A stretch of DNA of 64,000 bases from Arthrobacter mangrovi (lineage in GTDB: Bacteria > Actinomycetota > Actinomycetes > Actinomycetales > Micrococcaceae): positions 248,001 through 312,000 of the forward strand of contig NZ_BRVS01000008.1 of the NCBI RefSeq assembly GCF_026011795.1, written 5' to 3'. The notes under the pieces were generated by a model. The model saw only the letters and a list, made by a program, of their open reading frames with translations. It was not told the origin of the DNA and did no database searches. The first letter of the stretch is position 1. Each line of letters starts with the position of its first letter. Positions 7,788 through 17,655 of this stretch are shown here, in pieces. The translations under genes were made by a program, and so were the position numbers.

Positions 7788-9617
7788 ATGGACTCCCCCA
7801 TCCAGACGTACCTGCAGGCCCTGCACGACGAGATCGCCGGCATCCGCGACGGCACCCCGGACAGCAGCATCCCGGGCATCGCCGGCGTGGATCCGGACCG
7901 CTTCGGCATCTGCCTGGCCACGGCGGACGGCTATGTCTATGAGGTCGGCGACACGCGGGAGGACTTCACCATCCAGTCCATCTCGAAGCCCCTGACGTAC
8001 GGGCTGGCGCTGGCCGACCTGGGCGCCGAGGCGGTGGACGGGAAGATCGACGTCGAGCCCTCCGGGGACGCGTTCAACGAGCTGTCGCTGGCCGAGGGCA
8101 CCGGCAGGCCGGCCAACGCGATGATCAACGCCGGTGCCATCGCGGCGGCCTCGCTGGTCAAGGGCAGGGGCGGCAGCTCCCGGTTCGAGCGGATCCTGAA
8201 GACCTACTCGGACTTCGCCGGCCGGGAGCTCGACTACAGCGCTCGGGTCTACGAGTCCGAGCGGCGTAGCGGTTTCCGCAACTACGCGATGGGCTACCTG
8301 CTCCGGCAGTTCAATATCCTCGAGCAGGATCCGGTCCCGGTGCTGGAGGACTACTTCCGGCAGTGCTCGGTCCTGGTCACCTGCCGCGACCTCGCAATGG
8401 TCGCCGCCACGCTGGCCAATGCCGGCGCCAACCCGGTGAGCGGGAAGCAGGTGCTGGAACTGGACGTGGTGGAGCGGGTGCTGTCCGTGATGGCCACCTG
8501 CGGAATGTACGACGACGCGGGTTCGTGGCTGAGCTCGGTCGGCATGCCGGCCAAGTCCGGGGTCGGCGGCGGCATCATTGCGGTGCTTCCGGGCCAGGTC
8601 GGCGTCGGGATCTACGCGCCGCCGCTGGACGGGCACGGCACGAGTGTCCGCGGCGCCGCGGCCTGCCGGCGGCTCTCCCGCGACCTCGGACTGCACTTCG
8701 TGCATGCCGCCAGAACCGGCCGCTCCGCGATCCATGCCAGCTACGACATCACCGCCGCCCCCTCGGGCATCCGGCGGAACGACGAGGGCGCCGAGGTGCT
8801 CCGCTCCCACGGCCACCGCGCCCGGATCATTGAGCTCAACGGCGACCTGCTTTTCGCCGGCACCGAATCCGTCATCCGCGAGGTCAGCGCGCAGAGCCCG
8901 GACGTGGAGCTGGTCATCCTGGACCTGCGGCGGGTGGACGAAACCGGGCGGGTGGCGGCCAAGCTGCTTCCCCGGCTCCGCGATGCCTTGGCCGATGCCG
9001 GCTGCGGGCTGCTGCTCATCGATCCCGGTGGCGTACTGGCCGGCGCCCTCGGCAGCAGCGAAGACGGCGGAGACGGCTGCGCCCCCGCCTTCGGCACCCG
9101 GCGCGCCGCCGTCGAAGACGCCGAAAACCAGCTGATCGCCCGCTACGGCAGCGAGCTCTGCCTGCCCGAAACGGTGGCGGTCCCGGATTCCCCCGCCCTC
9201 GGATCGCTGGACCCTGCCGTGGCAAAGGCGCTGGCGGAGCGGATGGAGCCACGGGAGTACGACGACGGCGACGTCATCCGGCGCGCGGGCCAGCGGTTCG
9301 GCGGGATCTACTTCATCAGCTCCGGCAAAGTGGCCAGCTCCCTCCCCGCGCCCGGCGGCGGCCGGATCCGGATCAGCACGCTCAGCGCCGGCATGACCTT
9401 CGGCGAACTGGCCCTGGCCAGCGACGACCGCCAAGAAACCACCGTCAAGGCAGTGGGCCCCGTCCAGGTCAGCGTCCTGACCGCGGAAGCCATGGCGGAG
9501 ATCGAAGCGGGCGACCCGCGGCTCGCCGTCGAGCTGTGGAAAACGCTGACCCGCGATGCCTACGTGCGGGTGGACCAGTACCTGCGCGAAACTGCCATCC
9601 GGGACGACGGGAGATAA
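7788..9617 (+). CDS. glsA: Glutaminase A fused to STAS and cyclic-nucleotide-binding domains
   Basis: A 609-residue three-domain protein. Residues ~10-310 are a beta-lactamase-fold glutaminase (glutamine to glutamate plus ammonia) with the S64-x-x-K67 catalytic motif, the NAMINAGAI and NYAMGYLLR blocks and a GMYDDAGSW tyrosine motif. Residues ~335-450 look like a STAS domain (RIIELNGDLLFAGTE, LVILDLRRVDE). Residues ~475-600 form a cNMP-binding domain (DGDVIRRAGQRFGGIYFISSGKV, GMTFGELAL). The N-terminal glutaminase alone would be about 310 residues, the normal size of a stand-alone enzyme, so the fusion suggests activity tuned by a nucleotide or a partner. The mRNA is probably leaderless. Confidence 0.9.
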   Translation: MDSPIQTYLQALHDEIAGIRDGTPDSSIPGIAGVDPDRFGICLATADGYVYEVGDTREDFTIQSISKPLTYGLALADLGAEAVDGKIDVEPSGDAFNELSLAEGTGRPANAMINAGAIAAASLVKGRGGSSRFERILKTYSDFAGRELDYSARVYESERRSGFRNYAMGYLLRQFNILEQDPVPVLEDYFRQCSVLVTCRDLAMVAATLANAGANPVSGKQVLELDVVERVLSVMATCGMYDDAGSWLSSVGMPAKSGVGGGIIAVLPGQVGVGIYAPPLDGHGTSVRGAAACRRLSRDLGLHFVHAARTGRSAIHASYDITAAPSGIRRNDEGAEVLRSHGHRARIIELNGDLLFAGTESVIREVSAQSPDVELVILDLRRVDETGRVAAKLLPRLRDALADAGCGLLLIDPGGVLAGALGSSEDGGDGCAPAFGTRRAAVEDAENQLIARYGSELCLPETVAVPDSPALGSLDPAVAKALAERMEPREYDDGDVIRRAGQRFGGIYFISSGKVASSLPAPGGGRIRISTLSAGMTFGELALASDDRQETTVKAVGPVQVSVLTAEAMAEIEAGDPRLAVELWKTLTRDAYVRVDQYLRETAIRDDGR

Positions 9618-11016: not shown

Positions 11017-11637
11017 TCAGGCGCGGGCGGCCAGCCCCAGCCCCGCTAGGACCGTGTCCACCCCGAAGAGGAACGCCTCGTCGTCGTTGTTCCGCTCCGC
11101 CCCTTCCGGCAGCAAACCGGCGGCGGCGAGGTCGGCGTGCGTCTGCTCCTCCGCCACCGAGCCCAGGATGCAGTGGGTCAGCGTGCGCGCGCCCCAGGCA
11201 GCGGGCTGCGCACCCAGCCCGCGGCGCTCGAGCAGCCGGCGCAGGGTGCTGATGGCCGGAAGAGCCTCGGAGGTCATCGCCTGTGCCAGCGAGACGACAT
11301 CCGCGCCGTCCCGCACGGAGAGCAGGGCCGAGCGGATGTCCAGGGCCAGCTGCCGGACGGGCTCCGGTCCGCCGATTGGAGACCCGGTATCCGCAGCGGC
11401 GCCGGACACCTCGCCCTCCGGCCCGTCGGGATGATCGGCGTCAGGCTCCGGCACGGCGGCCAGGATTTGACGGGCCAGCACGCCCAGCAGTTCCTGCTTG
11501 TTCTTCACGTGCCAGTACAGCGCCCCGGGCTGCACGCCGAGGTCGCGGGCCAGCCGCCGCATGGACAGGTCGGCCAGCCCATAGCTGCGCAGGATCTGCA
11601 TCGCCGCGTCCTCGATCTGCCGGCGGGTCAGCGCCAT
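11017..11637 (-). CDS. bioQ: TetR-family repressor of biotin genes, BioQ-like
   Basis: A 206-residue TetR-family repressor. Its N-terminal helix-turn-helix (ALTRRQIEDAAMQIL, GVQPGALYWHVKNKQELL) is standard and the rest is a ligand/dimer domain. It is divergent from bioB, and the shared region holds two perfect TTGAAC-N3-GTTCAA palindromes, like the TGAAC-N3-GTTCA-type site reported for BioQ of corynebacteria and mycobacteria. One operator covers a possible bioQ -35 (TTGAAC at 11727-11722, GAATGT -10 at 11703-11698), so autoregulation is likely. The start has AGGAGG 5 nt upstream. Naming rests on position plus operator, not on sequence comparison. Confidence 0.8.
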   Translation of the reverse strand: MALTRRQIEDAAMQILRSYGLADLSMRRLARDLGVQPGALYWHVKNKQELLGVLARQILAAVPEPDADHPDGPEGEVSGAAADTGSPIGGPEPVRQLALDIRSALLSVRDGADVVSLAQAMTSEALPAISTLRRLLERRGLGAQPAAWGARTLTHCILGSVAEEQTHADLAAAGLLPEGAERNNDDEAFLFGVDTVLAGLGLAARA

Positions 11638-11712: not shown

Positions 11713-11727
11713 TTGAACGCCGTTCAA
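11713..11727. promoter_or_regulatory. BioQ operator 1
   Basis: Perfect palindrome TTGAAC-GCC-GTTCAA. It lies 7 bp upstream of the bioB -35 box and overlaps a possible bioQ -35, so binding could affect both directions. It has the same half-sites as operator 2. Confidence 0.8.
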
Positions 11728-12913: not shown

Positions 12914-14310
12914 GTGGTACTGCACTCCCCCGCCGCCGTCGTTCCCGGCACGGCCCCCGGCTCCGGGACCGAAACCACGCGCCGGCGTACGCCCGGCACC
13001 GGCACCATCCGTCGCGACCGCGGCCTCCTCTGGCATCCCTACGCCCCGCTGGACGGCCCGGCGCCCTTTGCCGTCGAGGCGGCCGGCGGCGTCCGGCTGC
13101 AGCTGCGGGCGGCGGACGGCGAGCGCTTCGACGTCGTCGACGCGATGAGCTCGTGGTGGTCCATGATCCACGGCTACCGGAACCCGGTGCTGGACGAGGC
13201 ACTGCGGCACCAGTCGGAGCGGTTCAGCCATGTCATGTTCGGCGGCCTCACGCACGAGCCCGCGGTGCGGCTGGCCGAGCAGCTGGTCCGCCTCGCGCCG
13301 CAGCCGCTGGAGCACGTATTCCTCGCCGACTCCGGCTCGGTCTCGGTGGAGGTGGCGCTCAAGCTGGCAGTGCAGTACCAGGCGGCGACGGGCCGGCCGG
13401 AGCGGCAGCGCTTCCTCGCGCTGCGCGGCGGCTACCACGGCGACACCTTCGCGGCCATGAGCGTCTGCGATCCGGTGGATGGCATGCATTCGGCCTTTCC
13501 CGGGCTGGTGGCGCAGCAGGAGTTCCTGCCGCGGCCGCCGGCGGCGCGATTGGACAACGACGGCGAACTGGTCGCCGATGCGGCGGCGGTGGCGGGCTGG
13601 ATCGCCGCCCTCAAGGAGACCGTTGCCCGGCAGGCCGGGGGGCTGGCGGCGATCATCGTGGAGCCGGTGCTCCAGGGCGCCGGCGGCATGTTCGCCTACG
13701 CCCCGGAGTGCCTGCGTGCGGCGCGGCGGGTGGCGGACGAGCACGGCCTGCTGCTGGTCTTCGACGAGATCGCCACCGGCTTCGGCCGGACGGGCCGGCT
13801 TTTCGCTGCGGAATGGGCCGGGGTCTCTCCGGACATCATGTGCGTGGGCAAAGCGCTGACCGGCGGCTACCTCACGCTGGCGGCCGTGCTCTGCTCCGCC
13901 GAGGTCGCCTCGGCCGTCACGAACTCGGAATTCCGGGCACTGCTGCACGGGCCGACCTTCATGGGGAATCCGCTGGCGTGCGCGGTCGCCTCGGCGTCGC
14001 TGGACCTGCTGGAGGCCAACGGGTGGCGGCAACAGGTGGGCGGGGTGGAGCGCGGCCTGGCCGCCTCGCTGGCCCCGGCCGCCGCACTGGGATCCGTGCG
14101 CGAGGTGCGCGTGCTCGGCGCCGTCGGCGTGGTGCAGCTGGACCGGCCCGTGGACATCCCCGCCCTCACCCGGGCCGCCCTGGATCGCAGCGTCTGGGTC
14201 CGCCCGTTCCGCGACCTGGTCTACACCATGCCGCCCTATGTCTCGTCCGCGGCGGACGTCGCCGCCATCGGCGCGGGCATCACCGGCGCCATCGCGGAGG
14301 TGCACGGCTG

Positions 14311-14311
<1 letters not shown>
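12914..14311 (+). CDS. bioA: Adenosylmethionine-8-amino-7-oxononanoate aminotransferase
   Basis: A 465-residue class III PLP aminotransferase that makes 7,8-diaminopelargonate from KAPA. Motifs: WHPYAPLD near the N-terminus, [44 protein letters not shown] and the PLP lysine in [14 protein letters not shown]. The GTG at 12914, 7 nt after bioB, is chosen because upstream in-frame codons run back through bioB; no good ribosome site is visible, so coupling to bioB is likely. About 35 non-conserved N-terminal residues precede the core. Its stop overlaps the bioF start (14311). Confidence 0.92.
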
Positions 14312-15551
<1,240 letters not shown>

Positions 15552-15555
<4 letters not shown>

Positions 15556-16622
15556 ATTTCCACGTCGTCACCGAGCCCGCGCAGGTCCGCGAGGTCATGC
15601 GCCGCACGGAAGATTTCCTCCCGACGAACGCGCTCACCGCCGTCGTTCCCCTGGCCCCGGCCGCGCTGCGCATCCTTAGCCGCGCCCGCTTCGCGCTGCC
15701 GCCGGTGCTTGCCTCCGCGACCGGCGAGGCGCACTTGCGCGTTCGCCGCCTCGTCGCCGGCTTCTTCACCCCCGCGAAGGTCGCCGCCGTCACTCCCCGC
15801 GTGCGGGAACTTGCCGCAAAGCGCTGCGCGGAGGCCGCGCCGGCGCTGCGCAACGGACCGGTCGATCTGGCGGACATGGTGGCAAAGCACGTCCCGCCGG
15901 TGGTGATGGCGGAGCTGATCGGCATCGGCCTGCCGGACCTGGACACATTGAAGCGGTGGAGCCGCGACTCGCTGGAGCTGTTCTGGGGCTGGCCGGACGC
16001 GGACCGCCAGCCGGCACTGGCCGCCAGCGCAGCCGAGTTCTACACCTGGCTGCGGTGCGAAGTCGCCGCCGCGCGGGGCACGGACACGCTGTTCGGCGTG
16101 CTGGACCGCGCTGGCCTCAAGCCTGCCGAAATCTGCTCGCTGGGCTACTTCCTGGTGATCGCCGGGCAGGAGACCACCGCCCAGCTGATCGCCACCGCGT
16201 TCTACCGCACGCTGCAGCACCCGGACCGGTGGCGGCTGCTCGCGGCGGGCGGTTCCGGCCGGGACTTGGTTCGGCGAGTGCTCGCGACCGAGTCATCGGT
16301 CCACACGTGGCGCCGCGCCGCCGCCCGCGCCACCGAGTTGGGCGGCACCGTGCTGCCCGCCGGGGCCGAGATCGTCCTGGAGCTTAGCGGCCATCACGGC
16401 CCCGATGCCGGCGCCACCGCCTACTCGCTGGCCTTCGGCCACGGACTGCACCGGTGCCTCGGGGCGAAGCTCGCCGAGCTGGAAACGGTACTCGTCCTCG
16501 AGGAGACGGCGCGTGCCCTGCCGCAGGTGCGGCTGGATGGGCCGGACCCCGCGTGGCTGCGCCTGCTGTCGTTCCAGAGTCCCCGGACCGTCCTCGTCCG
16601 GCAGGAGCCCGATCTTCCATGA
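15552..16622 (+). CDS. Divergent cytochrome P450 inside the biotin operon (no ExxR motif)
   Basis: A 356-residue P450, shorter than the usual ~400. The I-helix oxygen motif AGQETT (A204 onward) and the haem loop FGHGLHRCLG with Cys302 are intact. In the K helix the normally invariant ExxR is absent: lined up with CYP107-type sequences, residues 241-245 read RRVLA. About 11 residues are also missing from the meander before the haem loop (no FxxPxxFDxxR). It overlaps bioF and bioD by 4-base ATGA junctions, so it is co-translated with them. In Bacillus the P450 BioI releases pimelate from acyl-ACP; a comparable pimeloyl-supply role is an inference. No bioC, bioH, bioW or bioZ is in the window. 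Confidence 0.8.
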
Positions 16623-17465: not shown

Positions 17466-17638
17466 TGCCTAACTCTGCCACCACAATTCGAGCCCGTTCA
17501 GTAACCGCTGGCAGAGGCGGGGGACCCAAGTTTTTCGGGCTTCCACGGAAGCCCTTGGGGTTAAGCCGAGGAGTACGTTCCGTACTGCTCCACGGCCGGG
17601 TGACTCCCATCCGAACCCGACAGCTCACCTCGTAGGCA
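17466..17638 (+). ncRNA. Cyclic di-AMP riboswitch (ydaO/yuaA type)
   Basis: The aptamer core is recognisable: GCCTAACTCTG at the 5' side, GGCAGAGGCGGGGGACCCAA, then TTGGGGTTAAGCCGAGGAG, and the 3' block CCGAACCCGACAGCTCACCT followed by CGTAGGC. P1 is TGCCTA (17466-17471) paired with TAGGCA (17633-17638). P1 ends 2 nt before the ribosome site (GGGAGAGG, 17641-17648) of the NlpC/P60 gene, so ligand binding could directly affect translation. In actinobacteria this class commonly precedes cell-wall hydrolase genes and switches them off at high c-di-AMP. Confidence 0.93.
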
Positions 17639-17655
17639 TTGGGAGAGGCACAACT

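Follow-up and report, generated by a model that had tools for sequence, protein, structure and literature searches.

A short cytochrome P450 without ExxR in the biotin operon of Arthrobacter mangrovi, predicted to serve pimelate supply

The involvement of a cytochrome P450 in biotin synthesis is already known from BioI (CYP107H1) of Bacillus subtilis, which, along with BioWF—in which a pimeloyl-thioester supplier is naturally fused to BioF, as in Desulfosporosinus and Corynebacterium amycolatum—provides a precedent for the locus described here (PMC9544090). BioI is reported to be dispensable in B. subtilis (PMC12915131, PMC11089781) and has been described as unique to that species (PMC12915131). 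The diiron oxygenase BioE, a ferritin-like, non-haem iron enzyme whose fold differs from that of a P450, is likewise credited with cleaving long acyl thioesters oxidatively to a pimeloyl group (PMC12915131), and the Streptomyces P450 MkpG is proposed to make methyl-pimelic acid for a BioF-like enzyme (PMC13336041). P450s that depart from the near-universal ExxR motif are also known, in the CYP157 proteins of Streptomyces; the motif is reported to stabilise the ‘meander’ loop, with most mutants being inactive and misfolded (PMC3990721).

The stretch of DNA analysed here (‘the window’; 64,000 nucleotides of A. mangrovi contig NZ_BRVS01000008.1) contains a biotin operon of the order bioB-bioA-bioF-P450-bioD, with all five genes on the plus strand. 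Working from the regulatory end of the operon downwards, its features are:

11017..11637, minus strand: TetR-family regulator adjoining bioB, a BioQ candidate (name taken from the literature); PF00440 and PF02909 both over cut-off
11713..11727, no strand: operator-like palindrome TTGAACGCCGTTCAA, a perfect TTGAAC-N3-GTTCAA
11763..11777, no strand: operator-like palindrome TTGAACGGTGTTCAA, a perfect TTGAAC-N3-GTTCAA
11770..12906, plus strand: bioB, biotin synthase; TIGR00433, 387 bits, over cut-off
12914..14311, plus strand: bioA, 7,8-diaminopelargonate aminotransferase, with an uncertain start codon; over cut-off for TIGR00508 at 515 bits
14311..15555, plus strand: bioF; best match TIGR00858, at 351 bits short of that model's cut-off (426)
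15552..16622, plus strand: cytochrome P450 (P0001), short and lacking ExxR, PERF and the N-terminal region; over cut-off for PF00067 at 29.9 bits
16619..17353, plus strand: bioD, dethiobiotin synthase; TIGR00347, 118 bits, over cut-off

An earlier note on this DNA had placed a short P450 between bioF and bioD with ATGA overlaps on both sides, and direct reading bears this out: the 356-amino acid reading frame shares four bases with each neighbour, the stop codon of bioF occupying 15553–15555 and the ATG of bioD starting at 16619. We also confirm that the I helix (AGQETT, residues 204–209) and the haem loop (FGHGLHRCLGA, with Cys302) are intact. The K helix, RRVLATESSVHTWRR, aligns without gaps to that of a CreJ-type paralogue from the same genome (DEVLRYSGSIVGWRR, containing EVLR) and to that of PDB entry 5gwe; the Glu and Arg of ExxR fall upon R242 and A245 respectively (residues 241–245, RRVLA), exactly the replacement that had been claimed. 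The meander is shorter by ∼12 residues than that of the same paralogue, close to the ∼11 previously estimated; a further loss, which the note had missed, is that of ∼50 N-terminal residues, present in the paralogues but absent both from the window protein and from the relatives that we read. The AlphaFold2 model is a confident one for a P450 (pLDDT 92, pTM 0.92), and the protein matches structures in the PDB. Its fold and profile, the haem-thiolate cysteine within FxxGxxxC and the (A/G)Gx(D/E)TT of the I helix are those of the superfamily, whilst the K-helix ExxR (here RVLA) and the PERF/meander arginine are lacking; as absence of ExxR is a rare but known exception, the fold still places the protein amongst the cytochromes P450.

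The bio-operon P450 is not an orthologue of BioI, but lies nearer to CreJ and the haem domains of CYP116B type. Like BioI, it is encoded within a biotin operon. Against the profile of the family, however, BioI (PDB: 3ejb/3ejd/3eje) scores 106 bits and CreJ 191; the fold match to BioI is tied with those to many other P450s, and identity in the structural alignment is 20%, below the 40% that a place in CYP107H would call for short of orthology. CreJ and CYP116B score far higher against the profile. The nearer relatives, CreJ (5gwe, 5xjn) and the CYP116B-type haem domains, differ in their own way: unlike the window protein, the seven CreJ-type paralogues in our alignment show EVLR, a complete meander and an ordinary N-terminus, and no bio genes are found in eight stretches of 4.6–12 kb around genes for CreJ-type paralogues. 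Homologues carrying ExxR at the same place but away from bio genes—which the earlier note had expected to overturn its observation—do exist, then; the observation nevertheless stands, since what they indicate is that the motif was lost here. Assignment to the CYP157 type (Arg lost, Glu kept) was also rejected: the quoted CYP157 sequences keep the glutamate (EVLW, EQSLW; PMC3599690), whereas the window protein has R..A, and Glu without Arg is seen in only 11 of the 95 bio-operon P450s collected in the census described below, 78 having neither residue.

Orthologues sharing 51–92% identity are found in 16 others of the 59 genomes searched (the host's own included), amongst them 9/9 genomes of the same genus; in all 17 the P450 lacks ExxR and adjoins bio genes. 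A scan of named genomes returned 179 P450 loci, of which the best 80 were fetched. Every one of these 80 adjoins bioF or bioD; they come from Arthrobacter and its allies, Kocuria, Cryobacterium, Salinibacterium, Knoellia, Ornithinimicrobium and a metagenome-assembled Propionibacterium.

For a census, the host's family was sampled evenly to give 395 genomes. At a threshold of E 1e-100 for the P450 profile (93 genomes) and E 1e-60 for bioF (115 genomes), 92 genomes had both genes, one had the P450 only, 23 had bioF only and 279 had neither, giving a Fisher p of ∼1e-66 when genomes are treated as independent of relatedness; P450 and bioF are thus co-inherited. In the sole P450-only genome (G006) the contig begins 98 bases upstream of the gene. 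Inspection of all 23 bioF-only genomes located a divergent P450 in the same slot in two of them (G326, 48%; G566, 43%), so that the P450 is absent from 21 of the 115 bioF genomes in this family. Adding these two brings the number of census genes to 95, and in 95/95 genomes the P450 adjoins bio genes: 67 have the arrangement bioF-P450-bioD, 18 have bioF-bioD-P450, and in eight bioF and the P450 share one frame, followed by bioD; the remainder are contig ends, with bioF-P450 in G563 and P450-bioD in G006. In a sample of 297 genomes from the order, BioF matches at E 1e-45 are present in 42, and identity reaches 52% or more in 24 of these; the 18 with weaker matches (33–44%) were left out, as they may represent Kbl or a distant BioF. 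Of the 24, eight have the P450 and 16 do not, from which it follows that pimelate, or KAPA, is also obtained in other ways.

Turning to the motifs themselves, ExxR is complete in five census genes, reduced to the Glu in 11 and to the Arg in one, and without either residue in 78. Its loss is therefore predominant but not universal; to the question of whether all homologues lack ExxR, raised by the earlier note, the answer is that 90 of 95 do and that the five which keep it are all fusions to BioF. A sequencing error or decay as the cause is contradicted by the same count. A set of 96 distinct relatives, more biased than the census, has R at position 245 in none and E at position 242 in one. As a control, 21 other P450 loci (L001–L008, L026–L038) yielded 17 reading frames with a haem pattern, 17/17 of which have E..R within the 105 residues upstream of it, albeit by a loose test. 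A PERF-like pattern, sought as a regular expression, occurs in 0/94 readable census genes as against 7/7 paralogues. The catalytic residues, on the other hand, are conserved: the haem Cys in 93/93 readable genes (the other two being affected by a contig end and by an N), both I-helix threonines in 95/95 and the glutamate in 92/95 (AGQETT in 92, AGQYTT in two and AGQATT in one). Two divergent P450s with AGQYTT, those of L204 and L206, are without the usual acid of the acid–alcohol pair. Measured against five relatives, dN/dS of the P450 is 0.13–0.32 (dS being saturated in the most distant comparison), in the same range as bioF (0.18–0.25) and bioD (0.17–0.40); the gene is under purifying selection.

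The in-frame fusions of BioF to the P450 occur in eight census genomes belonging to four genera (G414, G371, G387, G397, G559, G505, G438 and G021). The frame shared by the two genes has no stop codon at their junction, so that a ribosome translating bioF necessarily continues through the P450. A further fusion, in the Propionibacterium MAG (L129), is the only one amongst the 79 named loci with bioF in view (within the best 80 of 179). Pfam recognises the aminotransferase domain in 6/6 fusions submitted and p450 in 5/6, the latter over cut-off in two; L054 goes unmatched by p450, yet aligns to residues 5–352 of the window protein at 51% identity. Five of the eight census fusions keep ExxR (ETLR, ECLR), a sixth reads QTLR and the other two lack both residues, whilst PERF is found in none of them; the PERF arginine can evidently go while ExxR remains, and its loss from the meander may be the reason that ExxR is free to drift. 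In a quick tree, the forks of which are weak, the fusion members are nested inside the P450 family rather than basal to it. The linkers of the fusions (e.g. L211, L212, L213) contain CPFAHGD-like words resembling the RCPFGHG at the start of the CreJ-type paralogue; perhaps these are a remnant of the lost P450 N-terminus. Compared with BioWF, where a CoA ligase sits N-terminal to BioF, the partner here is a P450 and sits C-terminal.

Taking these observations together with the analogy to BioI, we think it likely that the window gene encodes a haem-thiolate oxygenase that supplies a pimeloyl thioester to BioF. Such a role in pimelate supply had been suggested previously, and the prediction now draws support from the tracking of bioF, the adjacency to bio genes and the occasional fusion to BioF. 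As to the substrate, reaction, redox partners and channelling, we infer that the P450, like Bacillus BioI, would take a long-chain acyl-ACP (or acyl-CoA) as its substrate, oxidise adjacent carbons of the chain in successive rounds and then cleave the C–C bond between them, leaving pimeloyl-ACP or -CoA for BioF to condense with alanine; BioA, BioD and BioB would then complete biotin. Translational coupling, or covalent fusion in some species, would keep the P450 next to BioF and possibly allow the intermediate to be handed over. A BioI-like role would in this case be convergent, given the closer relationship to CreJ/CYP116B, and were the product free pimelic acid, a CoA ligase would also be required, with BioW (PF03744) being found in 0/59 relatives whilst the positive controls, B. 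subtilis and M. jannaschii, were matched. Several points count against pimelate supply: the bioF genomes without a P450 (21/115 in the family, 16/24 in the order sample), the three census genes without the I-helix Glu, the absence of a redox-partner gene from the bio operon of the window, the lack of any special closeness to BioI in sequence or fold, and the reported dispensability of BioI—although in this last respect the two systems differ, the bio-operon P450 being almost never found without bioF. More tentatively, the family might constitute a distinct P450 route to pimelate: compact, separate from BioI, and without PERF, the N-terminus and usually ExxR because it is docked to BioF, the complex or fusion trimming an acyl thioester oxidatively and passing the pimeloyl thioester to the PLP site.

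An alternative is that a Tam/BioC plus BioH-type route, encoded elsewhere in the genome, delivers the pimeloyl-ACP, with the P450 as an accessory, salvaging odd acyl chains for example. BioC (TIGR02072) is over cut-off in 0/59 relatives (best 83 versus 185 bits); this absence is weak evidence, since BioF too reaches its own cut-off in 0/59 though bioF is plainly present, so that the BioC cut-off may be too strict here and a divergent BioC could have been missed. Tam is reported to be the BioC of Mycobacterium smegmatis, unlinked to bio genes (PMC9302846), and a homologue, counted from E 1e-30 downwards although no match exceeds the 297-bit cut-off, is present in 37/59 relatives, the host's own genome included, and in 16 of the 17 with the P450. 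That the P450 occurs only where other pimelate genes are missing, which the earlier note had proposed to test, is left unsupported by this last count, and bioF genomes without a P450 also fit an independent route. Tam, however, is found in 21 of the 42 genomes without the P450 and in genomes with no strong BioF/Kbl match (G010, G020, G029); it does not, then, track biotin synthesis. Conversely, no match to Tam is seen in G028, which carries both the P450 and bioF, and the fusion of the P450 to BioF would go unexplained. Tam may still act as a BioC in the host, but we consider this route, with the P450 as accessory, unlikely.

Less probable still is that the protein is a non-catalytic P450 fold which activates or stabilises BioF, in the manner of the P450-derived glycosyltransferase activators. 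The erosion of ExxR, PERF and the N-terminus, the fusions to BioF and a weak TIGR04515 match could be read in this way, though that match, at 47.1 bits against a cut-off of 343, falls short of assigning the protein to those activators, which are not known to retain the haem Cys. The near-invariance of the haem and oxygen-activation residues noted above makes an altered, non-catalytic function, the other possibility considered by the earlier note, improbable, and the 21 family genomes with bioF alone, a few of whose bioF genes look damaged, indicate that BioF as such does not need the P450. A step downstream of BioF, or the synthesis of a biotin-like antimetabolite, is a role for the P450 that we find hardly credible: actinobacterial P450s (MkpG, AcdE) do occur in biotin-analogue clusters (PMC13336041), but MkpG is itself placed upstream of a BioF-like enzyme by the proposal cited at the outset, and the P450 here belongs, as judged by the bio genes, to an otherwise ordinary bioBAFD set, in which it mostly follows bioF or bioD directly and in some genomes forms one protein with BioF.

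We found no description in open papers of an actinobacterial bio-operon P450 family that is nearer CreJ, without PERF, mostly without ExxR and sometimes fused to BioF. For these Micrococcales, with BioW absent and BioC not over cut-off in the 59 relatives, the family offers an answer to the source of pimelate that is testable in soil bacteria which grow easily: by analogy, the shortened P450 that many such bacteria carry among their biotin genes is the probable producer of the vitamin's first building block. If so, a P450-based pimelate route would be widespread, as against the description of BioI as unique to B. subtilis, and biotin enzymes that are fused in nature, of which there are few (PMC9544090), would gain a further example in BioF-P450. 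The natural series of proteins with and without ExxR, PERF-less wherever readable, could also serve to probe the purpose of a near-universal P450 motif.

The two main arrangements seem to differ both in their regulation and in their BioB. Near the start of bioB the window has two TTGAAC-N3-GTTCAA palindromes, against none expected (100 shuffles). A tetR gene adjoins bioB in 24/80 named clusters (the best 80 of 179 loci), and the TGAAC-N3-GTTCA core is present in 22/23 named loci of this tetR-bioB type, as compared with 2/46 loci (L082–L127) that are nearly all of the bioD-P450 type; for the bioF-bioD-P450 arrangement, which makes up most of L082–L127, tblastn detected no tetR beside bioB. Close reading of two loci with this arrangement (L050, L052) showed a distant type of bioB next to the P450 cluster (33–35% identity). 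Around the bioA-bioF-P450-bioD genes of L204, L206, L214, L215 and L217 the 10–14 kb fetched gave no match to bioB, which may lie elsewhere. The operons of L207 (G328), where the bioF match ends early beside reading frames that by eye are transposase-like, and of L205 (G538), where bioA is matched as two fragments and bioF over a short length, are perhaps in decay. Within the window, a c-di-AMP riboswitch (RF00379, 57.5 bits; 17481–17652, plus strand) is found just behind bioD and upstream of a LysM-NlpC/P60 gene (17656–18558), and a 609-amino acid glutaminase (7788–9617, plus strand) carries, according to Pfam, a C-terminal cyclic-nucleotide-binding domain, an unusual joining for a metabolic enzyme.
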